From NCBI GenBank assembly GCA_017435025.1, contig JAFSFU010000212.1, positions 1 to 15,311 of the forward strand: a stretch of DNA of 15,311 bases, written 5' to 3'. This DNA is from Lachnospiraceae bacterium (GTDB taxonomy: Bacteria > Bacillota_A > Clostridia > Lachnospirales > Lachnospiraceae). Below the pieces are notes generated by a model. That model searched no databases and was not told the origin of the DNA. It worked only from the letters and a program-made list of their open reading frames with translations. Of this stretch, positions 4,789-15,311 are shown piece after piece (the stretch's first letter is position 1; every line of letters begins with the position of its first letter). The translations under genes were made by a program, and so were the position numbers.

Positions 4789-6177
4789 CTAATTATTTTT
4801 TGCTTTATTCACCGCACCGCCGATCGCCATGATCACAGCAAATACGATCAGATACCATACACAGCTGAAACGGTGGCTGATGACAGATGCCAGTACCATA
4901 AATGCACTTCCGGTGATTGCAAGGATCGGGAATACGAAACGGCGAACCGTGCTTTCACTCTTCTCTTTGCGCATCCACTGTACAAAGATCGGAATGTACA
5001 TCGCGTAAACCGTGATGATCGGAAGTTCTGTCGGGTCAAATACGAACGGGCCGCTCCATGTACCTGCCAGATTGGACAGATAGAAGTACAGGAACCATGC
5101 AGCACTGACAAGCAGCGCAAACACTGCGGAGTTACCCGGCATATTTGTTTTCTTATCGACCTGACCGTACATTTCCGGATTCGGGCCTTCGCCGCGGGCC
5201 GCAATGGAGTACATGCATCGGCTGCATCCCATCATAAGACCATTAGCTGTACCGAGACAGGAAATTGCGATAAACAGGTTCAGAACATTACCCAACACGT
5301 TGCCAAAAATCTTTGTAAATGCGATCGTCGCACCCTTATCGATCAGCTCCTGGTTTGTTACGCCGCCGGCAACACCGATATAGTAGAAAATATACGTAGC
5401 AATGATAATGAAACCGCCGATCACCAGTGCCTTCGGCAGATTCTTCTTGGAATCTTTGATCTCAGAGTTGATGGAAGTTGCAATGATCCATCCTTCGTAT
5501 GCAAACGCAGTCGCACATACAGACGCGAACAGCGGATTTGCAGAAACATCTGCCACCTGTGCAGTTGTTGTCATATTGGTCTGTAACATACCGGTTGCAA
5601 GACCGTAAACGATACCAACCACAGCCATCAGGCCAAGCGGGATCATCTTGATAACGGTAGTGGAAGTCTGCAGTTTACCTGCAAGCTTCGGGGAAAGTAC
5701 GTTCATCGCATACACACCGCACATTACAAACAGTGTCAATGCCAGACATTCCGGACCAAATACACAGCCGCCTTCTGCCGCCGGAATCAGCATATGGAAG
5801 TTCGGGTTTACGGAAACGATGAATTCCAGCGTATATCTTGCGGTCAGCCAGCAAAGTGCAGCCGTCATACTCGGGAAATAGATGGTGCCTACAAACCATC
5901 CCATATAGTAGCCGTAGCTCGGACCAACCATCGCCTCTGCATAGTCTACCATACCATTTACACGCTCAATCTTCTGACTCATGAAAGAAAATGTAATCAG
6001 ACATGCCAGCATGATCGCGCCGCCGATCAGCCATGCCATGATCGCAAGCGGCATATCACCGCCGGTTTTCTGTAGGATCGCCTGCGCCTTAAAGAATACA
6101 CCGGAACCGATTACAATTCCGACTACCATACATATCGCTGTAAATAGACCATATTTTCGTTCTAGTTTGTTTTCCAT
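4789..6177 (-). CDS. APC-superfamily amino acid permease
   Basis: This 462-residue protein has about 12 hydrophobic segments. Helix 1 carries the unwound substrate-binding motif GIVIGSGVF (20-28), and the helix 6 region carries AFAYEGW (224-230). The following amphipathic loop EIKDSKKNLPKAL (239-251) matches the E..nP.rn.PkA signature of the APC (LeuT-fold) family. Such proteins move amino acids across the cytoplasmic membrane by proton coupling or exchange. The pattern resembles serine/threonine exchangers of Firmicutes, but the substrate cannot be read from sequence. AGAGAG stands 7 nt before the ATG. The gene starts 51 nt after the dUTPase stop with no terminator between, so read-through from the dut promoter is likely; it ends at its own terminator. 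Confidence 0.9.
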   Translation of the reverse strand: MENKLERKYGLFTAICMVVGIVIGSGVFFKAQAILQKTGGDMPLAIMAWLIGGAIMLACLITFSFMSQKIERVNGMVDYAEAMVGPSYGYYMGWFVGTIYFPSMTAALCWLTARYTLEFIVSVNPNFHMLIPAAEGGCVFGPECLALTLFVMCGVYAMNVLSPKLAGKLQTSTTVIKMIPLGLMAVVGIVYGLATGMLQTNMTTTAQVADVSANPLFASVCATAFAYEGWIIATSINSEIKDSKKNLPKALVIGGFIIIATYIFYYIGVAGGVTNQELIDKGATIAFTKIFGNVLGNVLNLFIAISCLGTANGLMMGCSRCMYSIAARGEGPNPEMYGQVDKKTNMPGNSAVFALLVSAAWFLYFYLSNLAGTWSGPFVFDPTELPIITVYAMYIPIFVQWMRKEKSESTVRRFVFPILAITGSAFMVLASVISHRFSCVWYLIVFAVIMAIGGAVNKAKNN

Positions 6178-6228
6178 AATCTTACTCTCTTTTCGCGTTT
6201 TTTATTTTTAAAGAATTAAGGCAAAAAA

Positions 6229-6663
6229 CTACTTAACTCCCGTGGAGCCGAAACCTCCGCGTGCTTTATCACCCAGATGCTCCGTCTCCTCAAATACCAG
6301 CTTCGGCTGGTTCTCCATAATACGGAACTGGCAGACACGGTCGTTCACATGCACCACCGTGTCCCTTGTGGCATACACCGGCCAGCGCCAGATATCTTCA
6401 TCCCCGCAGTAGGTATTGTCCACAACACCGACGGAATTCACTTGAAGAAGTCCATAGTTCTTGAACGTTGAACTTCTCGGTGCGATATGCGCCTCATAGC
6501 CCTCCGGCAGTTTCATCGACACGCCGAGATTCACCATTTTGAACTCGCCGGCCTTAAACTCCACCTCTTCGGCTGCTCTCAGATCGATCCAGTCGGATTT
6601 TCCGTCAATATAGGTCAGTTTATCAATTTTATCGCTATGATACTTGATCTTGATCGTCTCCAT
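6229..6663 (-). CDS. dut: dUTP diphosphatase (trimeric dUTPase family)
   Basis: The protein has 144 residues, the normal length for trimeric dUTPase, with all five motifs in order: DLRA (27-30), APRSST (61-66), GVVDNTYCGD (79-88, catalytic Asp82 and base-stacking Tyr85), NDRVCQFRI (107-115) and the C-terminal arm RGGFGSTG (135-142). It hydrolyses dUTP to dUMP and pyrophosphate, keeping uracil out of DNA and feeding dTMP synthesis. An inserted-looking stretch between motifs 3 and 4 (DIWRWPVYA) is compatible with phage-like or clostridial variants. The start is the ATG at 6663, preceded by AAGGGG at good spacing; a longer frame to 6786 runs back through the promoter and lacks a site. Confidence 0.92.
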   Translation of the reverse strand: METIKIKYHSDKIDKLTYIDGKSDWIDLRAAEEVEFKAGEFKMVNLGVSMKLPEGYEAHIAPRSSTFKNYGLLQVNSVGVVDNTYCGDEDIWRWPVYATRDTVVHVNDRVCQFRIMENQPKLVFEETEHLGDKARGGFGSTGVK

Positions 6664-6735
6664 TTGATCCCCCTTTTCATTTCGAAGACAAATCATTGTT
6701 TGACAATTTGCCCCGTTTTCTTCTATATTTTCGTC

Positions 6736-6764
6736 ATCATAACACAATATGAAAGATCTTTCAA
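6736..6764 (-). promoter_or_regulatory. Predicted sigma-A promoter of dut
   Basis: On the minus strand TTGAAA (6764-6759) and TATGAT (6741-6736) are separated by exactly 17 nt. The transcript would have a leader of roughly 65 nt before the dut ATG. The -35 overlaps the 12-bp palindrome at 6751-6762. Confidence 0.7.
6751..6762. promoter_or_regulatory. Palindrome GAAAGATCTTTC overlapping the dut -35 region, possible operator
   Basis: This is a perfect 12-bp palindrome covering the spacer and part of the -35 of the predicted dut promoter. The half-site CTTTC/GAAAG appears again at 6776-6780, so 6758-6780 also contains CTTTCAA...TTGAAAG arms. The placement suits a repressor site, but no regulator is identified and an AT-rich chance palindrome is possible. 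Confidence 0.35.
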
Positions 6765-6809
6765 CTTTATTTCTTGAAAGTAACACTCCGTCTTCATCCA
6801 GTTCAGACC

Positions 6810-7229
6810 CTAATATAGTTCGCGAGTCAATTCATATGCCAGTTCCGGGTCATGCTGGCGAGCCCACTCATATAATTGAAGGCGACTGCTGTACCAATAA
6901 AAATCACTCTTTATAGAATGATAGTCAGACAGATCCTTTGGCAAACTCGGGTATTTTTGCAAAATCGGATGTTTTCGCAAAAACTCCATTTCAATTTCAC
7001 CAAGTCGTCTTACAGGTTCTTCCCCCAAAAGATCATCTAGGAATGCTTCAAACCTCTCATCTGAATCCAATAATTTTTGCAAAATTTCATCTGGCAGATC
7101 TTTATAATATCTTCGATATTGATTACAAAGCCCCACCATTTCTTCAAAACACTTCTTCAATTGTTTTTCCAAAAATTGTATAGTTTCATCATACTGATCC
7201 TTTTTTATTACTTTCTTTCGGAACTCCAC
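6810..7229 (-). CDS. Small helical protein of unknown function, linked to the TIR-NACHT gene
   Basis: I do not recognise this 139-residue protein. It is charged and helical, with an N-terminal run likely to form a coiled coil (residues 8-35), an acidic middle (DSDERFEAFLDDLLGEE) and an aromatic C-terminal half (SDFYWYSSRLQLYEWARQ). It has no signal peptide, membrane helix, metal-binding cluster or HTH that I can see. The start was chosen as the GTG at 7229 because AAGGAGG lies 7 nt before it; the GTG two codons upstream at 7235 is only 1 nt from that site. It begins 15 nt after the stop of the TIR-NACHT gene, so the two are almost certainly co-expressed. Its AT content is high (two 60-nt lines counted at 32% and 37% GC), unlike hflX. 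A role as partner, inhibitor or sensor of the TIR-NACHT protein is inference only. Confidence 0.75.
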   Translation of the reverse strand: MEFRKKVIKKDQYDETIQFLEKQLKKCFEEMVGLCNQYRRYYKDLPDEILQKLLDSDERFEAFLDDLLGEEPVRRLGEIEMEFLRKHPILQKYPSLPKDLSDYHSIKSDFYWYSSRLQLYEWARQHDPELAYELTRELY

Positions 7230-7236
7230 GATCACA

Positions 7237-7243
7237 CCTCCTT
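7237..7243 (-). promoter_or_regulatory. Strong ribosome binding site deciding the start of the small gene
   Basis: AAGGAGG on the minus strand is a near-perfect anti-16S match. Its spacing is 7 nt to the GTG at 7229 and 1 nt to the in-frame GTG at 7235, so the former is favoured. It begins 1 nt after the TGA stop of the TIR-NACHT gene. Confidence 0.7.
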
Positions 7244-7244
7244 A

Positions 7245-10200
7245 TCAAACCCGATTCTTTTTCTTACCAATTTTCATAAAAAGAATCCACAATAAAATCG
7301 ATGATTCATCTCCTAAAAAGATAATCTTTACGTTTGTGCTGGTGAACATAAATAATTCTGCTGCTGCACCCAAAACTGTTTGGAAAATAAAGGAAAATAA
7401 AATCAGCTTCTGAACGGTAACAACAAATTCGCTCTCAATATCTTCCTGAATGTAGCGTTTCATCATAACCAATAAAACAATGATCATAATCAAAAATGCT
7501 GCTAAAACAAGAATTCCATAATGGTGATGAATCCAGGACATCGGTAATTGCTGAGAAATAAAGTAATCGGAATTCAATGCCGAATAATCACCGTTTAGAC
7601 TCTGAGATATCGCCTGCATCCGGTGAGAAATCCAGCCAAGGTTCCCCCATCCCTGATATCCCATAATCTCATAATAGATGCTGCGCACAATTTCCCGTAC
7701 ACGGCTGCTCGTTGCAAATAACAGAACAACCGCTGCAATATTTGCCAAAACAGTTGCCACAATACGATATGGCATCTTTTTTTGTCTCTTCCTTTGAATA
7801 TCCTGAGAGTTGATTCCTTCCTCCTGCTCCAGATCAAACATAGATCTTCGATTCAGGTTTTTACTGAAGCGGATCAGCTCCGATGTTCGAGGTTTTGCGA
7901 ATAACAGATATGCCGTATCTGCAATCAAAAGCATATAGAACCAGCAAATATGATCTGTAAAGTCCACATATCGATTCGAATAATAGGTGCAACCCATCAG
8001 CAACGCAATGGCTAATCCGTAATAACGGGCAGACCAGAGAAATGGATGCGCTGGCTTTTTACGAAGTTCATACGTCTCCTCCCGATATAACATAAACGTT
8101 GCAAGAGCCATGATCAAAAACGGCCAAAGTTCCTCCATAAAGAATCGAACATAACTTACTGTCGCTCCCTGTACTGCGAGAAACAGCCCCAGAATGCAGC
8201 CACACCAGTATTCTTTCCAGTAATGTGCCGGTTCCAATTCAAAATACGGTGTTTTCCCGTGCAAGTATTTTTCCCAGTTTTTATCACGTTTTTCAGAATC
8301 CTTCAGCCAAATATAAAACGGACACAAAATCATGTATGCAACAAACCATAAGAACGAATCTGTCATACGCAAAACAAAATAAGAAACTGTCGCTGCTGCC
8401 ATGCCGAAAGCCAAACGTTTGAGACTTTTTTCCCTTTTTTTCCCTTTTGCTTCCAAGTCTGTTTTGAAATATGCGATCAGTCCCAAAAGAATTCCGCAAC
8501 GGATTCCAAGATTCACGATAATCCGAAGCAGCGATTCCTTCACATCGTACAAATACGGCAATTCTGCTCCCGGCTGCGTTCCGTCTGCATAGAAAAAGTA
8601 AAAATTTGCTGCCATTAAAATAAACACGACAATGGTCATCGGAATCGTTAAGATCGGACCGCGGAAGGACCTTTTGTCTTTCTCCTGAACAGTTAACTCA
8701 CGAATTCCGCTTTTAACCTTATTGCGGGCATCTTCAAATGAATGAAATAAAATACTGTCAGCAATCTTATCAATCAGACTATGCTCATCGAACCGACGGC
8801 TTTCTTTCTCCTGTTCTACACCTGCATGCAGTGAATTGCGCACCATTTCTACGGCTGCTGCGGTATATCCTTCTTCCATCAGCTGTGACAATTTTTTGTT
8901 CTTTGCCGAATCATCCGTGTATGCATGCAATTCATTCAAAATGTCCTGTCGTTTCCGGACACCGCTTTCCATGTCCCGGATTCGGTGTTTTGATTTTCCT
9001 GATTGATTTTCATAATCATGATTTCGATAACCGATAAACCATTGGTTCAGAATATCATAGCACATCCGTGCACAATAGATTTCTTCCGTCTGTACAAAAT
9101 CATCTCCGACTGCAATTGCCTTTTCCAGATAACCCCGGGTTTTCGATACCTTCACCTGAAATTCTTCTTTTAACTGTTCCGCATAACTCAACAGTGTGAA
9201 GGTTTCCCATACCGTCATTTGTTTTGGATCATTCTCAAATTTTTTCTGCAGATATTCCACCAATCCCTTATGTCCAGCTTCTGCAGAACAATAAAACCGT
9301 CCTGCCTCCTCACCCCGGATCCATTCTCCGATATACTGATGGGAGAATTTCCATGTTTTCTCCCCGAGCCAGTTAGTATTGTTGGCCAAAAGAATCTGCA
9401 TCTTCAGAAGAATATCATGTTCCCGGTTCTCATCCACGCCCAACAAGGAAGTCACCATGTTTGTCGGAATACCCTCCGGAATTGCCAGCATGGTGCTGAT
9501 GAAACGACGGTATTTCTGCTCATATTCCTCATGTTTCGGAAAGCTTCCTTCAAACCACTGGTAGAACATGGCTGACAGACCTTCCGGGAAATGTTCCAAA
9601 TCTGTAATGGACTGATTGCCGTTATGGATACTGTTAGCCATCAATTCTGCATATAAAAACACGCCCTTGCTGGCCTCAGTCAGTCGATCCAACACTTTAT
9701 TGCGCTCTGATTCTGATGGAATCTGCTGCAACTCGGTCTCAAGACAGGACTCATAATAAGTCCGAATATCGACCATATTTCTCTCCATGGAACCCTGCAG
9801 TTTCATGGAATTCATATTTCCGAAAATGGAAGTTACCGATGCCAGCTCTCTTGTGGTCACCAGAAATCTAAGCCAATTCGGAAGCCGGTCGGCATACTGC
9901 TTTAATGTTCTTGCAAGATCATTGTCCTTTTCATCACCGCACTCGTCGAGACCGTCGATGATGAAGCAAAGGTTTTCATGACCGCCGTCAATGTATAAGT
10001 GTTGAAGCGGCTCCGAAAGAAGCATATCAAACAATTCAGAAACCGTTTTATCTTTTAAATTATCTCCATTTCCAAAAATCTGAATTAATGCTTTTCGATA
10101 TGCCGGCAAGCGACAGGCCAGCTGGTAGGAAATGGAACGGATAATGTTTTCCGGATCATTGAAATGTACATGATTCCGTTCGCAGAAAATACCGCCCACA

Positions 10201-10874
10201 ACCTTTTCATGATAATGCATATAGTTGGCTGCAAAGGCACTTTTACCGATACCGGGTTCTCCGTACAGAACCAACATACGGTCGGCATCGTTATCACGCA
10301 GCCATTTTTCCACCTCATCTGCCAGCCATGCACGGCCCCAGAACGCCTTCGCCAGTAATGCACTCTGACGTGACCGGCTGATCAGTGGGTTCAGGATTTT
10401 TCGGACAGACTCGATTTCTCCCGCAAACTCGCCGTCTCGTTTTAACATCTCGACTAGCGTCTTCATTTTGGAAGAAAACCAATCTTCAAAAGCTTCATTG
10501 CCGCGAGACTCCCATTCCTTCCAGTCATGCATGTCCAGCCACTGGGAATGGCAAAGCTCTGCCGGCGGCACGACTTCCTCTTCATTTTCCAAGAGAATCG
10601 TCTTAATATTGCCGCCTTTTACTCCCACGGCAATGCTAAGTTCATTGAGACAGACACCCGGTTTCCTGCAAGAATGCCTGGAAAGACAGGCGAGGACACC
10701 ATTGCTCTCGCTGATGCCCTCAAAAATCTTACGTCTCCAATCGTTACCCTCTTTAATATCATCCAGATCCATCCACACATCAAAGCCGTTGGCTCTGAGA
10801 TGATCACAGATTTTCTGGCAGATGCTCGCCTCCGGATGACCGTAACTTAAAAATAGTTTTTTATTCATACTCAT
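7245..10874 (-). CDS. TIR-NACHT STAND NTPase with polytopic C-terminal membrane domain, candidate antiphage NLR-like protein
   Basis: This 1209-residue protein has three parts. Residues 4-118 form a TIR domain: KLFLSYGHPE at strand A, GFDVWMDLDDIKEG, and CLNELSIAV with Glu78 at the position of the TIR NADase catalytic glutamate. Residues 180-520 are a NACHT/STAND NTPase: WGRAWLADEVEKWL, Walker A GEPGIGKS (205-212), Walker B FIIDGLDE (304-311), the sensor-like LVTTRE (338-343) and a KGVFLYAELM/PEGL helical part. A helical linker follows (520-735). From about 738 there are roughly 12 hydrophobic segments (near 738-762, 782-803, 819-835, 838-857, 890-908, 912-930, 947-965, 974-993, 1034-1057, 1117-1137, 1152-1176, 1183-1202). 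TIR domains joined to STAND NTPases act in bacterial abortive defence by consuming NAD or making signals. Using membrane helices instead of TPR or WD repeats is unusual. The ATG at 10874 directly abuts the MATE stop; another ATG at 10868 is possible. Confidence 0.92.
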   Translation of the reverse strand: MSMNKKLFLSYGHPEASICQKICDHLRANGFDVWMDLDDIKEGNDWRRKIFEGISESNGVLACLSRHSCRKPGVCLNELSIAVGVKGGNIKTILLENEEEVVPPAELCHSQWLDMHDWKEWESRGNEAFEDWFSSKMKTLVEMLKRDGEFAGEIESVRKILNPLISRSRQSALLAKAFWGRAWLADEVEKWLRDNDADRMLVLYGEPGIGKSAFAANYMHYHEKVVGGIFCERNHVHFNDPENIIRSISYQLACRLPAYRKALIQIFGNGDNLKDKTVSELFDMLLSEPLQHLYIDGGHENLCFIIDGLDECGDEKDNDLARTLKQYADRLPNWLRFLVTTRELASVTSIFGNMNSMKLQGSMERNMVDIRTYYESCLETELQQIPSESERNKVLDRLTEASKGVFLYAELMANSIHNGNQSITDLEHFPEGLSAMFYQWFEGSFPKHEEYEQKYRRFISTMLAIPEGIPTNMVTSLLGVDENREHDILLKMQILLANNTNWLGEKTWKFSHQYIGEWIRGEEAGRFYCSAEAGHKGLVEYLQKKFENDPKQMTVWETFTLLSYAEQLKEEFQVKVSKTRGYLEKAIAVGDDFVQTEEIYCARMCYDILNQWFIGYRNHDYENQSGKSKHRIRDMESGVRKRQDILNELHAYTDDSAKNKKLSQLMEEGYTAAAVEMVRNSLHAGVEQEKESRRFDEHSLIDKIADSILFHSFEDARNKVKSGIRELTVQEKDKRSFRGPILTIPMTIVVFILMAANFYFFYADGTQPGAELPYLYDVKESLLRIIVNLGIRCGILLGLIAYFKTDLEAKGKKREKSLKRLAFGMAAATVSYFVLRMTDSFLWFVAYMILCPFYIWLKDSEKRDKNWEKYLHGKTPYFELEPAHYWKEYWCGCILGLFLAVQGATVSYVRFFMEELWPFLIMALATFMLYREETYELRKKPAHPFLWSARYYGLAIALLMGCTYYSNRYVDFTDHICWFYMLLIADTAYLLFAKPRTSELIRFSKNLNRRSMFDLEQEEGINSQDIQRKRQKKMPYRIVATVLANIAAVVLLFATSSRVREIVRSIYYEIMGYQGWGNLGWISHRMQAISQSLNGDYSALNSDYFISQQLPMSWIHHHYGILVLAAFLIMIIVLLVMMKRYIQEDIESEFVVTVQKLILFSFIFQTVLGAAAELFMFTSTNVKIIFLGDESSILLWILFMKIGKKKNRV

Positions 10875-12233
10875 CTATCCTTTATTTGGAACAATCAGAA
10901 CTCTATGTACACTCCTGTAATATTTTATGATCATATAACCGGCACCGCCGCACCACGCAGCCACCTCCGCTATAAAGATTCCGTTGGCATAACCGGTCAT
11001 GCCGACGATCAAGGCGATACCAACGCGGAGTACCAGCTGGATCATGCCGGAAACCACCGATACCATCGTATTTCCCGTGCCGTTTAACGCTGCCTGATAT
11101 ACATAAAGCAAATATAAGATCGGCAAAAAGACCGCCATGTATACAAGATACAGATATGCCGTATCTCCGGCCGCTTTCATCATCGCCGCTGAATCAGCAG
11201 AAATAAACAGCATGGTCATCGACCGGCCAAACAGGATCAGTAACGCTGTGATCACCAATGATGTGGCGATGGACAGCAGCGTTGCCGCTTTCATACCGTC
11301 CTTGATGCGATCGTATTTTTCCGCACCATAATTCTGGCCCACATAAGTTGCCACGGCAAAACTGTAAGACAGCGCAGCAATCTCGAACAAACCATATAAT
11401 TTGTTTGCTGCCGTAAATCCGGCAATAAAACTCATGCCAAAACCATTTACAATTGTCTGGATCGCCATTCCGCCAATGGAAACAATCGTGTTTTTCGCTG
11501 CGATCGGGGCTCCTAAACCGCCCAAAAGTTTACACGTAAATGGATTGACCTTCATGTCTTTTCGACCAAAACGCAGCACTTCCGTCTGTCGTATCTTTAT
11601 AAAACAGATGGTGCCGGATACACTTTGAGAAAAAACTGTGGCAGCCGCTGCACCGGCAATTCCCCATCCCAGTCCAAATACCGCAACACAATCCAGTACG
11701 ATGTTGGTGATCGAAGCAATGATCATCGCCTTCAGCGGTGTTTTACTGTCACCCACCGCGCGAAGAACAGACGCGCCAAAGTTATAAAACATCACCAACG
11801 GGAAACCGCCCAGCATGATGCGCATATACATCTCTGCCATTCCCATGATCTCGTCCGGAATGCGAAGACAATATAAGAAAAACGGCAGTATAAATTGCAT
11901 GGTCACTGCCACAAAAACGGCAGTCGCCGCAGAGAGAAATGCCGACTGACCGATCACATGGCACAGACCGTCCCTGTCACCTTCACCGTACTTTTGTGAG
12001 ATCCGCACAGAAAAGCCCTGGGTAAAACCAGTGGCAATTCCAAGGAACATCCAGTTCAGCCAGTCAATGGTACCAAGCGCTGCCAGTGCGTCCAAACCAA
12101 CACCACGGCCAACAATCGCCGTATCCACCACCGTATACATCTGCTGGAATAAATTGCCTAGCATCAGCGGCAATGCGAAAGAAAGCAATAACTTCGCAGG
12201 TCTTCCCTGCGTCATAACTACCGATTTACTCAT
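10875..12233 (-). CDS. MATE-family multidrug/Na+ (or H+) efflux transporter
   Basis: The protein has 452 residues, the standard MATE length, with about 12 membrane segments arranged as two related halves. The N-terminus PAKLLLSFALPLMLGNLFQQMYTVVDTAIVGR is the classic MATE start, and the second half opens with the matching LLGGLGAPIAAKNTIVSIGGMAIQTIVN. Other family signs are ASVLRAVGDSKTPLKAMI and YQAALNGTGNTMVSVVSG. MATE proteins export cationic drugs and metabolites against ion gradients across the cytoplasmic membrane. AAAGGGG precedes the ATG at 12233 by 9 nt. It begins 48 nt after the helical protein gene and its TAG stop touches the ATG of the TIR-NACHT gene, so transcript and probably translation are coupled. 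MATE genes are common chromosomal genes, so this may simply be the upstream neighbour into which the defence genes inserted. Confidence 0.93.
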   Translation of the reverse strand: MSKSVVMTQGRPAKLLLSFALPLMLGNLFQQMYTVVDTAIVGRGVGLDALAALGTIDWLNWMFLGIATGFTQGFSVRISQKYGEGDRDGLCHVIGQSAFLSAATAVFVAVTMQFILPFFLYCLRIPDEIMGMAEMYMRIMLGGFPLVMFYNFGASVLRAVGDSKTPLKAMIIASITNIVLDCVAVFGLGWGIAGAAAATVFSQSVSGTICFIKIRQTEVLRFGRKDMKVNPFTCKLLGGLGAPIAAKNTIVSIGGMAIQTIVNGFGMSFIAGFTAANKLYGLFEIAALSYSFAVATYVGQNYGAEKYDRIKDGMKAATLLSIATSLVITALLILFGRSMTMLFISADSAAMMKAAGDTAYLYLVYMAVFLPILYLLYVYQAALNGTGNTMVSVVSGMIQLVLRVGIALIVGMTGYANGIFIAEVAAWCGGAGYMIIKYYRSVHRVLIVPNKG

Positions 12234-12281
12234 TTCCGTAATCCCCTTTCGGCATCTTTTCCGTTTTCGATACCGGCGGTC

Positions 12282-12644
12282 TTAAATGCTGCATAAATCG
12301 TTCAGCAGGTCGATCACATCATCCGTGCCGTACCCTATCTCCACCAGTTCCACTTCATCGTTTTCGCGAACTTCCGCGAGAAGCTCGTCCATATAATCCA
12401 GAGTGTCCTCCAACAATGCGATACATTCCTCCGCGATCTCACCGGCAGTGCTGCACTGCTGCTTTTCAGACATCTTTTCGTATGCCTCCTGCTCTTCATC
12501 ATGGATTTTTTCGATGGTCTTTTTGCTCTTTGCCAGAGCGACCTCCAATTCCTCCAAAGTCGGCGGATTGGATCTTAAAGACCGTTTTATGGCACGGAGA
12601 CCATCCAGTTCCAGTTTTAAAGCGGTTTTTCTCTGTTTATTCAT
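12282..12644 (-). CDS. Small helical (coiled-coil) protein of unknown function
   Basis: I do not recognise this 120-residue protein. It is rich in Glu, Lys and Leu. A likely coiled coil spans residues 27-63 (LEELEVALAKSKKTIEKIHDEEQEAYEKM), followed by a helix EIAEECIALLEDTLDYMDELLAEV and a short acidic tail. No signal peptide, membrane segment or known catalytic motif is visible. The start is the ATG at 12644, which overlaps the stop of the upstream gene (ATGA) and has CAGGAGG 10 nt before it; a longer frame to 12680 would run through that site. The overlap indicates translational coupling with the phosphatase-like gene. It lies 48 nt before the MATE gene on the same strand. Confidence 0.8.
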   Translation of the reverse strand: MNKQRKTALKLELDGLRAIKRSLRSNPPTLEELEVALAKSKKTIEKIHDEEQEAYEKMSEKQQCSTAGEIAEECIALLEDTLDYMDELLAEVRENDEVELVEIGYGTDDVIDLLNDLCSI

Positions 12645-12997
12645 ACTTTCAAATCCTCCTGTAAACACTTTCTTACCCACACTCGCTCCAGCACATCGTA
12701 CACATACTGATTTGGACTTCCGTTGGTAAAATACTTGGTATTATCCGCTCCAAGCATCTTTACAACAAACGCACCTTCCACTTCTTTCACAATATCGTCA
12801 AAATACAGTGTCAGTACACCTTTGCAAAACTGATTCTCTGCAAACTGCACACCGAAACCGCCTGTATGGGCATCCTGAATGGAAATAATGGCGTAAGTGT
12901 CCTTTCGCTCTACCATCTCCTCCAATCCGGCCGGATAGTAATGCTGCATCACATAATCAAATGTATCATGAACGGATCGAACCCAAACACGTTTCAT
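12641..12997 (-). CDS. Protein phosphatase-like protein that appears to lack its active-site segment
   Basis: The 118-residue product reads like the two ends of a dual-specificity / tyrosine phosphatase-like family known to me from Lachnospiraceae. The N-terminal half has TYAIISIQDAHTGGFGVQF and CKGVLTLYFDDI; the C-terminal half has FVVKMLGADNTKYFTNGSPNQYVYDVLERVW. In full-length relatives, as I recall them, about 40 residues including the HCxxGxSRS phosphate-binding loop lie between these. Here KEVEGA runs straight into FVVKMLG, so no Cys-x5-Arg loop exists and catalysis is unlikely. The frame is open throughout, suggesting an in-frame deletion or a natural non-catalytic variant. The ATG at 12997 is chosen because AGGAGG lies 5 nt before it; the ATG at 13000 is only 2 nt away. 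The stop overlaps the next gene's start. Family assignment is from memory and is the least certain part. Confidence 0.65.
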   Translation of the reverse strand: MKRVWVRSVHDTFDYVMQHYYPAGLEEMVERKDTYAIISIQDAHTGGFGVQFAENQFCKGVLTLYFDDIVKEVEGAFVVKMLGADNTKYFTNGSPNQYVYDVLERVWVRKCLQEDLKV

Positions 12998-14245: not shown

Positions 14246-14995
14246 TTATTCATTATCAATCATCATTTCAGCAATCGCATCCACAGTCAGAGCAATCTGC
14301 TCATCATTGGTGATCTCCGGTCTACCGTCGCCCTCCTGTGCTCCGTACATGCCAAAATACGCATGGCATCCGCCGTCAATGACCATCTCCTGGAAATCCT
14401 TCGAAAGATTCCCCTTGTTCGCCTCATACTTTTCTTTGTTTAACACCATATCCTCACTGCCATACACAGAGAGCACAGATAATTCCTCATCCGACAGATC
14501 CGCGGTCGAATACGAACCAAGTAAAATCAGTCCGTTGAAATCATCCTCATTTTCCTCCAGATAGGCGGCTGCCATCGATCCGCCAAGAGAATGACCGCCG
14601 ATGTACCAGTTCTCAATCTGCGGATACTGCTCCTGAATTCCGTCCGCCGCATCCACATCAAACACCGCCAAATGAAATGGCATTTCCACCAGCACGCCGA
14701 AAATACCCTCGGACGCCAATGCCTTCATTAACGGAATATATGCCGTATATTCCACCTTACCGCCCGGATAAAAGATCAGTCCCGCGTTCGGGTTTTCCGG
14801 CTCAAATACCAGATTTCCCTCTGCATCGCTCCGCATTTCCACCGGATTCTCCGTCACAAATGCATTCACGGCCTCCATATCCGCACGATAATAATCACTC
14901 AGATAGATTCCGCACGCAGCAAAAGCAAGGATCACAACGGTCAGAATCGGTAAAATAACTTTCCGTCGTCTGTTCTTTCGATTATTTTGCTCCAT
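14246..14995 (-). CDS. Membrane-anchored alpha/beta hydrolase, second type
   Basis: This 249-residue protein starts with a basic stretch (NNRKNRRRK) and a hydrophobic anchor (residues 13-31), so it probably faces outward. The catalytic residues appear to be Ser136 in GGHSLGGS (133-140), Asp182 in YGSEDMVLN (178-186) and His211 in DGGCHAYFGMYG (207-218). The tail GAQEGDGRPEITNDEQ is a recurring signature of a clostridial alpha/beta hydrolase family; its substrate is unknown. The start is the ATG at 14995, which has GGGAGG about 10 nt before it and overlaps the end of the macrodomain gene by 14 nt; a longer frame to 15055 lies wholly within that gene. The overlap indicates translational coupling with the macrodomain gene. 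It is unlike the plus-strand hydrolase in motif detail, so they are not recent duplicates. Confidence 0.88.
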   Translation of the reverse strand: MEQNNRKNRRRKVILPILTVVILAFAACGIYLSDYYRADMEAVNAFVTENPVEMRSDAEGNLVFEPENPNAGLIFYPGGKVEYTAYIPLMKALASEGIFGVLVEMPFHLAVFDVDAADGIQEQYPQIENWYIGGHSLGGSMAAAYLEENEDDFNGLILLGSYSTADLSDEELSVLSVYGSEDMVLNKEKYEANKGNLSKDFQEMVIDGGCHAYFGMYGAQEGDGRPEITNDEQIALTVDAIAEMMIDNE

Positions 14996-15311
14996 TAGAT
15001 TTTTCCTCCCACAGCATCTCATACAATGCCGTCGTTCTCTTATCAAAGCATGCATATGTCACTGCGATCTCATAATCCGCGTTGGTCCTCAGCCACTCCG
15101 CCACCGTCTTCAGCGCGATCTTCGTTGCCTCCTCCAACGGATATCCATAAACGCCCGTGGAAATCGCAGGAAATGCAATCGAATGAATTTCATTTTCCCG
15201 CGCCAGTTCCAAAGAGTTCCAATAACAATTGCAAAGCATCTCCGCATCCCTCGAAGAACCGGAATAAATCGGTCCAACCGTATGAATCACGTATTTCGCC
15301 TTCAAATTGTA
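14982..15311 (-). CDS. Macrodomain protein, ADP-ribose / O-acetyl-ADP-ribose hydrolase-like, N-terminus beyond the window
   Basis: The frame is open to the right edge, so the start is missing; in-frame codons before the TTG at 15305 read YN, giving YNLKAKYVIHTVGP, which matches the conserved core of macrodomains. The visible 109 or so residues include AFPAISTGVYGYPLEEAT, the phosphate-binding loop with GVYG. The missing part (about 60-70 residues) should hold the NAAN...GGGVAGAI loop. Such proteins hydrolyse O-acetyl-ADP-ribose or remove ADP-ribose from protein targets in the cytoplasm. The stop at 14984-14982 lies inside the next gene's start region, so it is probably coupled to the membrane-anchored hydrolase. 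Confidence 0.9.
   Translation of the reverse strand, partial: YNLKAKYVIHTVGPIYSGSSRDAEMLCNCYWNSLELARENEIHSIAFPAISTGVYGYPLEEATKIALKTVAEWLRTNADYEIAVTYACFDKRTTALYEMLWEEKSNGAK

Follow-up and report, generated by a model that had tools for sequence, protein, structure and literature searches.

The window analyzed here, a 15,311-nucleotide stretch from a Lachnospiraceae bacterium (GenBank assembly GCA_017435025.1, contig JAFSFU010000212.1), encodes a large protein that combines an N-terminal TIR domain with a glutamate at the catalytic position, a central NACHT/NPHP3-type NTPase domain, and a swapped polytopic C-terminus, in a cassette with a 139-residue neighbor. The immune-type TIR/NACHT architecture is already known, whereas a swapped polytopic tail on such a protein appears to be new. 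Judging from its sequence, we lean slightly toward the view that the protein is a membrane-fixed, NLR-like (STAND) receptor of immune type, acting through abortive infection.

Domain architecture and exchange of the membrane tail

The large open reading frame (ORF) is open throughout, ends at position 7245 of the window on the minus strand, on which all features of the two genes lie, and can start at 10874 or 10868. The start at Met3 (10868), which places the gene at 7245..10868 and gives a protein of 1207 instead of 1209 residues, is the more likely, because the database copy of the protein (P0002, standing for 5 member sequences) has 1207 residues, three of five relatives (P0003, P0004, and P0006) start at this position, and AAAGGA is found 9 nt upstream. 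Residue numbers follow the 1209-residue form.

The TIR domain (residues 8 to 122; 10509..10853) matches PF13676 with an E value of 3.6e-20 (73.1 bits against a cut-off of 28) and also matches TIR structures in the PDB. The glutamate of the TIR protein Cat1 (PDB ID 9mud) aligns with Glu78 (codon 10641..10643), the catalytic position of TIR NADases, which is kept in 42/42 collected relatives, the proteins at 42 genome loci. The NTPase domain (residues 186 to 342; 9849..10319) matches NPHP3_N (Pfam ID PF24883) with an E value of 3.8e-24 (86.2 bits, cut-off 24.8), and the NACHT family (Pfam ID PF05729) scores 26.5 bits, slightly below its cut-off of 26.7. Both motifs of the NTPase can be read in the sequence. 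The lysine K211 of the Walker A motif GEPGIGKS (residues 205 to 212; 10239..10262) is kept in 39/39 relatives aligning there. The Walker B motif FIIDGLDE (residues 304 to 311; 9942..9965) has its acidic pair intact, with D310 and E311 kept in 38/38 relatives aligning there, a count that is partly owed to selection because the motif sits in one of the two patterns with which the relatives were collected. Both domain matches are far beyond chance, and an earlier note on this DNA, which had described an intact TIR domain with Glu78 and an intact NACHT domain, was right in these points as well as in its coordinates and residue numbers.

The rest of the predicted STAND core, a lid/winged-helix region (residues 343 to 530; 9285..9848), is delimited by TANC1 matches under the cut-off (TANC1-lid in P0006 and P0007, TANC1-HTH in P0006) and by a step in identity; the core segment common to relatives with other tails and to near-identical relatives ends at about residue 530. 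It is followed by a variable linker (residues 531 to 735; 8670..9284; 36 to 40% identity to five relatives) and by a polytopic membrane module, possibly SEDS-like, of approximately 10 to 12 predicted helices (residues 736 to 1209; 7248..8669). A Kyte-Doolittle scan finds 10 membrane segments, from residue 741 onward, and 9 to 11 in the five relatives with the same architecture, where one of the 11 in P0007 precedes the tail. A model of very low confidence contains 11 tail helices of at least 19 residues. The figure of about 12 membrane helices in the earlier note agrees with ours. The linker and the first membrane helices are very variable among the relatives, and the conservation of the tail is highest in its last approximately 180 residues (54 to 91% across 15 pairs).

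Searching approximately 5.8 billion proteins with the large protein gave 11 matches. Besides its own copy, P0002, the whole architecture is found in P0003 to P0007, the only five other proteins in this search with the membrane tail; P0008 to P0011 share the TIR-NACHT or NACHT part and carry other tails, and P0012 is a distant NACHT protein. The comparison with P0003 shows 99, 100, and 99% identity over residues 1 to 150, 151 to 350, and 351 to 530, and 36, 41, and 65% over residues 531 to 735, 736 to 1030, and 1031 to 1209. P0004 and P0005 repeat the step at about residue 530 (88 to 97% before, 38 to 66% after), and for P0006 and P0007 it is smaller (61 to 78% before, 36 to 63% after). This drop in identity indicates recombination between the TIR-NACHT half and the tail close to where the STAND core ends, the tail being exchanged as a module. 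Since the step is seen in three separate clusters, a single chimeric assembly is unlikely to explain it.

The TIR-NACHT half is present at the 42 genome loci in several phyla, with best segments 25 to 56% identical. In the 24 complete ORFs of at least 650 residues at these loci (the other 18 of the 42 are short or truncated at contig ends), we count 0 to 3 weak hydrophobic segments where the window family scores 9 to 11, or 0 to 1 against 6 to 8 with a stricter hydropathy setting. Scanning the tails of ten relatives yields TPR repeats over the cut-off in six (L002, L004, L005, L006, L010, and L011) and under it in L007, and WD40 in L014; the L016 tail holds DUF4062 together with a second AAA_16/nSTAND1 module, and L034 gives nothing. 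TPR repeats are also found in P0008 and P0009, and P0010 has an added RyR domain with weak TPRs. The RyR domain (Pfam ID PF02026) is N-terminal in P0010 and C-terminal in the relative at L002. Some of the loci show doubled arrangements: the relative at L016 (7899-11684) apparently holds two NADase-plus-switch modules in one chain, TIR-NACHT followed by DUF4062 and a STAND-type NTPase; at L006 (7866-13344), a TIR-NB-ARC-TPR gene begins 10 nt after the end of a TIR-NACHT-TPR gene, the two forming tandem TIR-STAND receptors; and one contig of genome G304 (C3; L131 and L150) carries two TIR-NACHT genes approximately 32 kb apart.

The membrane tail is rare. The large protein is found in 0/3 examined genomes of the genus, and the tail in 0/15 genomes holding TIR-NACHT relatives and 0/397 genomes of the bacterial family, two counts that have no positive control and so show little. 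The full profile matches in 19 of 392 genomes of the order. The TIR-NACHT half is strong in two of these (G304, twice, and G643), 16 have short matches to the TIR region, and one (G359) encodes a stand-alone membrane protein of 450 residues, L137, that matches the tail only (positions 1016 to 1184; E value, 7.5e-7). L137 (703-2055) is followed by a gene for 167 residues (2089-2592) with no Pfam match at an E value of ≤10, a two-gene parallel to the window pair without TIR-NACHT, between what we take by eye to be a MarR-type regulator and a RecN-type gene. L137 has a good match only to its own genome among 150 genomes and none in plasmids. Stand-alone tail homologues were likewise absent from the protein search with alignment A4 (E value of ≤1), from the PDB (≤10), and from viral contigs.

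Similarity of the tail to SEDS proteins

The tail may descend from the SEDS superfamily (FtsW/RodA), a proposal that we hold at about even strength; that the tail is unrelated and the similarity a coincidence between membrane proteins could just as well be the case. The likeness consists of a long loop that precedes the final three helices, an aspartate, and an alignment of the C-terminal part, with profile probabilities (the percentages given below) of up to 55 to 66% when L137 is included. The differences are that the tail has no Pfam match, that the aspartate occurs in 2/6 proteins, and that the module is fused to TIR-NACHT, and most other profile settings are weaker. The profile sets were varied during the analysis, so that the best values below are somewhat chosen.

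By eye, the end of the tail resembles SEDS proteins in its long loop, an NSDY and a YGIL motif, and then three helices, the last of which is preceded by FLGDESSILL. The loop (residues 1057 to 1119; 7518..7706) is placed like SEDS extracellular loop 4, judged by helix positions and the profile alignment, in which Asp1103 (7566..7568) falls on the conserved aspartate of a divergent SEDS profile. Against five divergent SEDS proteins, the tail reaches 45% and its last 180 residues 65%, and the same comparison gives <1% for canonical SEDS, 0.1% for MATE, and 0.2 to 0.5% for permease profiles. In an hmmsearch over 112 ORFs, this five-sequence profile finds P0007 (1.9e-5) and the window protein (3.2e-5), the next non-SEDS membrane ORF being at 0.1. 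The last part compared with 61 SEDS proteins gives 54% without L137. Once L137 is included, the value for the full tail is 55% over 350 columns, where its score of 42.1 exceeds the best of 60 shuffles (31.3); for the last part it is 65.5% (39.5 against 33.6 for shuffles). Other membrane families stay low in these later tests (MATE, <0.2%; amino-acid permease, <0.7%). We rejected the Wzy/O-antigen polymerases as the family of the tail, with 5.6% and 1.8% for a set of ORFs from 28/30 loci that were picked by helix count and not individually vetted; the positive control, Wzy against SEDS, gives 95.9%. Single SEDS proteins also outscore the 46 other membrane proteins (Mann-Whitney P values of 2e-5 for 31 divergent and 2.5e-5 for 30 canonical sequences), although these values are overstated by related rows and by a query enriched with L137.

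A coincidence is suggested by the other tests. PF01098 does not match the tail at an E value of ≤10, and the canonical SEDS profile alone gives 0.8 to 4.7%. When 35 SEDS proteins are pooled, the score of the full tail is below that of its shuffles (27.4 versus 29.4), and the last part scores above its own (28.3 versus 24.7); against the 31 divergent ones, the full tail (8%) is level with 80 shuffles (30.70 versus 30.72) and the last part (24%) again higher (31.7 versus 26.3). With the 31-sequence divergent profile, hmmsearch yields 0.015 for P0007 and 4.4 for the window protein; the 30- and 61-sequence profiles find no significant member of the family, and P0003 to P0006 are never significant with any profile. 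The reverse search, for which 46 non-SEDS ORFs of the set remain, shows no enrichment over the background: with the tail, the area under the curve (AUC) is 0.26 for divergent and 0.21 for canonical SEDS proteins, and with its last part, whose top seven are divergent SEDS proteins, 0.50 and 0.22, respectively. L137 alone gives 2% for SEDS and 12% for Wzy.

Position 1103 is Asp in 2/6 proteins (window and P0007), Gln in three, and Pro in one. If the SEDS origin is true, the module would therefore not be a conserved enzyme. In FtsW, the exchange D297A is described as nonfunctional and the residue as a putative catalytic aspartate, (PMC8765783). Lmo0421 is described as a noncanonical SEDS protein that has neither FtsW nor RodA function (PMC6624303). 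The divergent SEDS subfamily used here (L096 to L100 and L101 to L130) comprises proteins of approximately 410 to 500 residues with an N-terminal prefix, encoded alongside the usual SEDS genes and found in 34/250 sampled genomes of the bacterial family at an E value of ≤2e-24. We take the prefix to be HAAS/DUF1700.

The receptor reading and its rivals

Bacterial NACHT proteins run from an N-terminal effector through a NACHT oligomerization module to a C-terminal sensor, as the accessible text of PMC12169576 has it, and because of this order we read the large protein as a membrane-tethered receptor. Its membrane half would sense a phage protein or a disturbance of the envelope or cell wall, possibly as a degenerate SEDS-like decoy. 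Sensing would let the NACHT domain bind ATP and oligomerize, and the clustered TIR domains would hydrolyze NAD+, leading to a growth stop of the infected cell. The 139-residue protein would be cotranslated and most likely act as a regulator or cosensor. The reading is favored by the domains and their motifs, the N-terminal half common to several phyla with other tails, the exchange of the tail, the empty site in genome G412 (below), the lower GC content of the cassette, its patchy occurrence, and the SEDS likeness of the tail. In the available part of PMC10907252, antiviral STAND proteins are described as sensing via C-terminal domains, such as TPR repeats binding phage proteins; sensor targets include proteins with several membrane regions, and one NACHT protein is partly periplasmic.

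The earlier note had matched the architecture to no named system, and neither PADLOC nor NCBIfam gives a full-length match to the large protein; in contrast, the note's proposal of the gene pair as a defense module found no backing in recurrence or in a defense setting. The large protein resembles bNACHT proteins in being a single chain with the order of effector, NACHT, and a presumed sensor, and differs in its TIR effector and polytopic C-terminus; proteins of clades 6 and 14 are described as having a nuclease plus NCH1, or SNaCT (PMC12169576, accessible text). The TIR-NPHP3_N proteins with TPR or WD40 tails at the 42 loci share the homologous TIR-NACHT half, but their 24 complete ORFs lack a polytopic tail. 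In the part of PMC13174449 available, DUF4062 TIR-like NADases (Swarozyc) are described as anti-phage, and human TEP1 as having one beside a NACHT domain. A TIR-like NADase domain beside a NACHT switch is shared with TEP1, whereas the large protein has a TIR_2 domain and a membrane tail in place of WD40 repeats, and DUF4062 is absent among its 12 Pfam matches at an E value of ≤1. No Avs (AVAST) model is among the nine PADLOC families listed at an E value of ≤1; the Thoeris ThsB model matches over the TIR domain only (3.1e-5), and ThsA has no match among the five window proteins scanned. A TIR-NACHT protein with a polytopic C-terminus was not seen in the literature searched, which excludes most subscription papers.

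Several points weigh against the receptor reading. The membrane half might serve equally well as an anchor, the immune function is predicted from sequence, and the partner is an orphan whose search in the protein database found no relative beyond its own cluster, P0001. No Pfam model matches the tail above its cut-off, the SEDS tests are mixed, and AlphaFold2 models from a six-sequence alignment are poor by predicted local distance difference test (pLDDT) and predicted template modeling (pTM) scores, both for residues 11 to 1209 (pLDDT 40.3, pTM 0.26) and for the tail alone (41.9 and 0.31); a Foldseek search of the PDB with the low-confidence tail model (22 matches at an E value of ≤10, none at ≤0.001) is uninformative given the model. 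Phage records hold no match to the large protein, nor do viral contigs with the full alignment A1, and plasmids hold three weak ones. The PADLOC scan of five window proteins returns nothing besides the TIR match, which gives no defense island.

The membrane half might instead be the effector or anchor (a pore, depolarizer, or scaffold), with the TIR domain in signaling or assembly and the NACHT/lid region or the 139-residue protein as the sensor. The polytopic module and the well-conserved last 180 residues of the tail, unusual for a ligand-facing sensor, speak for this, but the TIR glutamate is kept in all 42 relatives, as expected of an enzyme effector, TPR or WD40 repeats occupy the position of the tail in relatives, and sequences diverge strongly in the linker and the first membrane helices. 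We regard this arrangement as unlikely. We find it similarly improbable that the protein is a non-defense regulator, a STAND switch that senses the state of the envelope or cell wall and signals via TIR-made nucleotides in stress or development. Ordinary neighbor genes, the few defense models at the loci of 15 relatives, and a tail possibly linked to cell-wall polymerases would suit such a regulator; however, the gene is missing from the congeners examined and is a rare, mosaic gene on an inserted cassette, as is typical of conflict genes and not of core regulators. Mobile behavior is indeed seen in the empty site of a congener, the patchy occurrence, and the exchange of modules. An addiction-type pair, with the TIR-NACHT protein as the toxin and the 139-residue protein as its inhibitor, would account for the tight spacing, the strong ribosome-binding site of the small gene, and the insertion as a cassette, but the small protein is an orphan and no recurring pairing was found, tblastn at L001 to L047 (E value of up to 1) included; we hold this reading to be very unlikely.

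The receptor reading can also be taken further, to a bacterial NLR with an integrated decoy, in which a catalytically degenerate SEDS-like (FtsW/RodA-type) module sits on TIR-NACHT with the 139-residue protein as coregulator; we hold this version to be doubtful. The module would be struck or mislocalized when phages or toxins attack cell-wall synthesis, and the TIR NADase would fire. Phages attack wall synthesis, and plant NLRs with integrated decoys are a counterpart, which here would be set in the membrane. If the tail is a cell-wall polymerase in degenerate form, attack by phages on wall synthesis would be matched by an immune sensor. More generally, a polytopic sensing half swapped between near-identical TIR-NACHT halves would, if true, extend NLR-type immunity to the envelope, and with a membrane TIR-NACHT receptor one could test directly what can be guarded at this site. 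The window protein and P0003, with the same effector and switch and different tails, would form a natural chimera for mapping specificity.

The 139-residue neighbor and the genomic setting

The small ORF (6810..7229) begins 15 nt past the stop of the large gene, as the earlier note had seen, with a GTG at 7229, preceded by a strong ribosome-binding site, AAGGAGGTG (7235..7243). Coexpression of the two genes is suggested by this spacing. The ORF is probably a real gene, as judged by two things, the ribosome-binding site and its own database cluster P0001, likewise of 139 residues (2 member sequences, 9 contigs). The protein is found in 0/397 genomes of the family and in neither viral contigs nor plasmids, and tblastn detects no relative of it at L001 to L047. 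These searches found no recurrence of the pair, and homologues of the large gene may occur alone, lacking the partner. Nothing in Pfam, PADLOC, or NCBIfam matches the small protein at an E value of ≤1, and a single PHROG does (0.37); a PDB match to A-kinase anchor protein 13 (0.0095) was rejected as a helical coincidence. Since no relative beyond its own cluster was found, its role is a guess.

The window HflX is 93% identical to that of genome G063, and we therefore take the window to belong to the genus of G063, from which three genomes were examined (G063, G412, and G377). The order in G412 is MATE, dUTPase, amino-acid permease, TPR lipoprotein, HflX, and NrdD; the names HflX, NrdD, nitroreductase, and TPR lipoprotein for neighbor genes are presumptive, assigned by eye. 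Compared with the window, the G412 MATE is 84% identical (316 residues on contig L059), the dUTPase 95%, and the permease 86%. MATE and dUTPase are 88 nt apart in G412 and 4.2 kb apart in the window, where the gap encloses the gene pair. As the two genes adjoin in G412 without the pair, the pair is an inserted cassette of approximately 4.1 kb (6783..10893, approximate ends of flank homology). Its flanks are the MATE transporter (10875..12233, minus strand) and a dUTPase-family gene (6229..6663, minus strand, start ATG 6663), both identified by profile match. The GC content is 0.46 and 0.41 in the two halves of the large gene and 0.37 in the small ORF, against 0.48 to 0.54 in five flanking genes. 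The 8-bp AAATAAAG occurs on the minus strand at 10880-10887 and 6765-6772, possibly by chance; as a transposition signature at both cassette ends it was rejected, being too short and A+T-rich to count.

A Pfam scan of nine window proteins reveals no defense gene besides the TIR-NACHT protein, the neighbors being ordinary, and a defense island at the window was rejected on this account. Around 15 relatives, 87/105 neighbor proteins were scanned (18 shorter ones, of up to 253 residues, are omitted) and gave 38 PADLOC families at an E value of ≤1e-10; the 25 listed have one member each, 15 of them being PD-T4-6 models, presumably kinase-like. With so few defense models around the pair and its relatives, the defense-island argument is unavailable, and the proximity to defense genes that might have supported the earlier proposal was not borne out.

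At the window edge (14982-15311), a gene that we take by eye to encode a macrodomain protein is cut off; it lies approximately 4 kb from the TIR gene and shows no sign of linkage. In the slot around the dUTPase (window 4789-12680; L048, L059, and L064), MATE and permease genes are variably present in the three congeners. A 132-residue protein (12282-12680) matches phrog_4068 (2.2e-8), which has no assigned function. Its homologue adjoins the dUTPase in G063 and G377, with no MATE or permease gene between it and the lipoprotein gene, an arrangement that suggests that the slot as a whole is variable.

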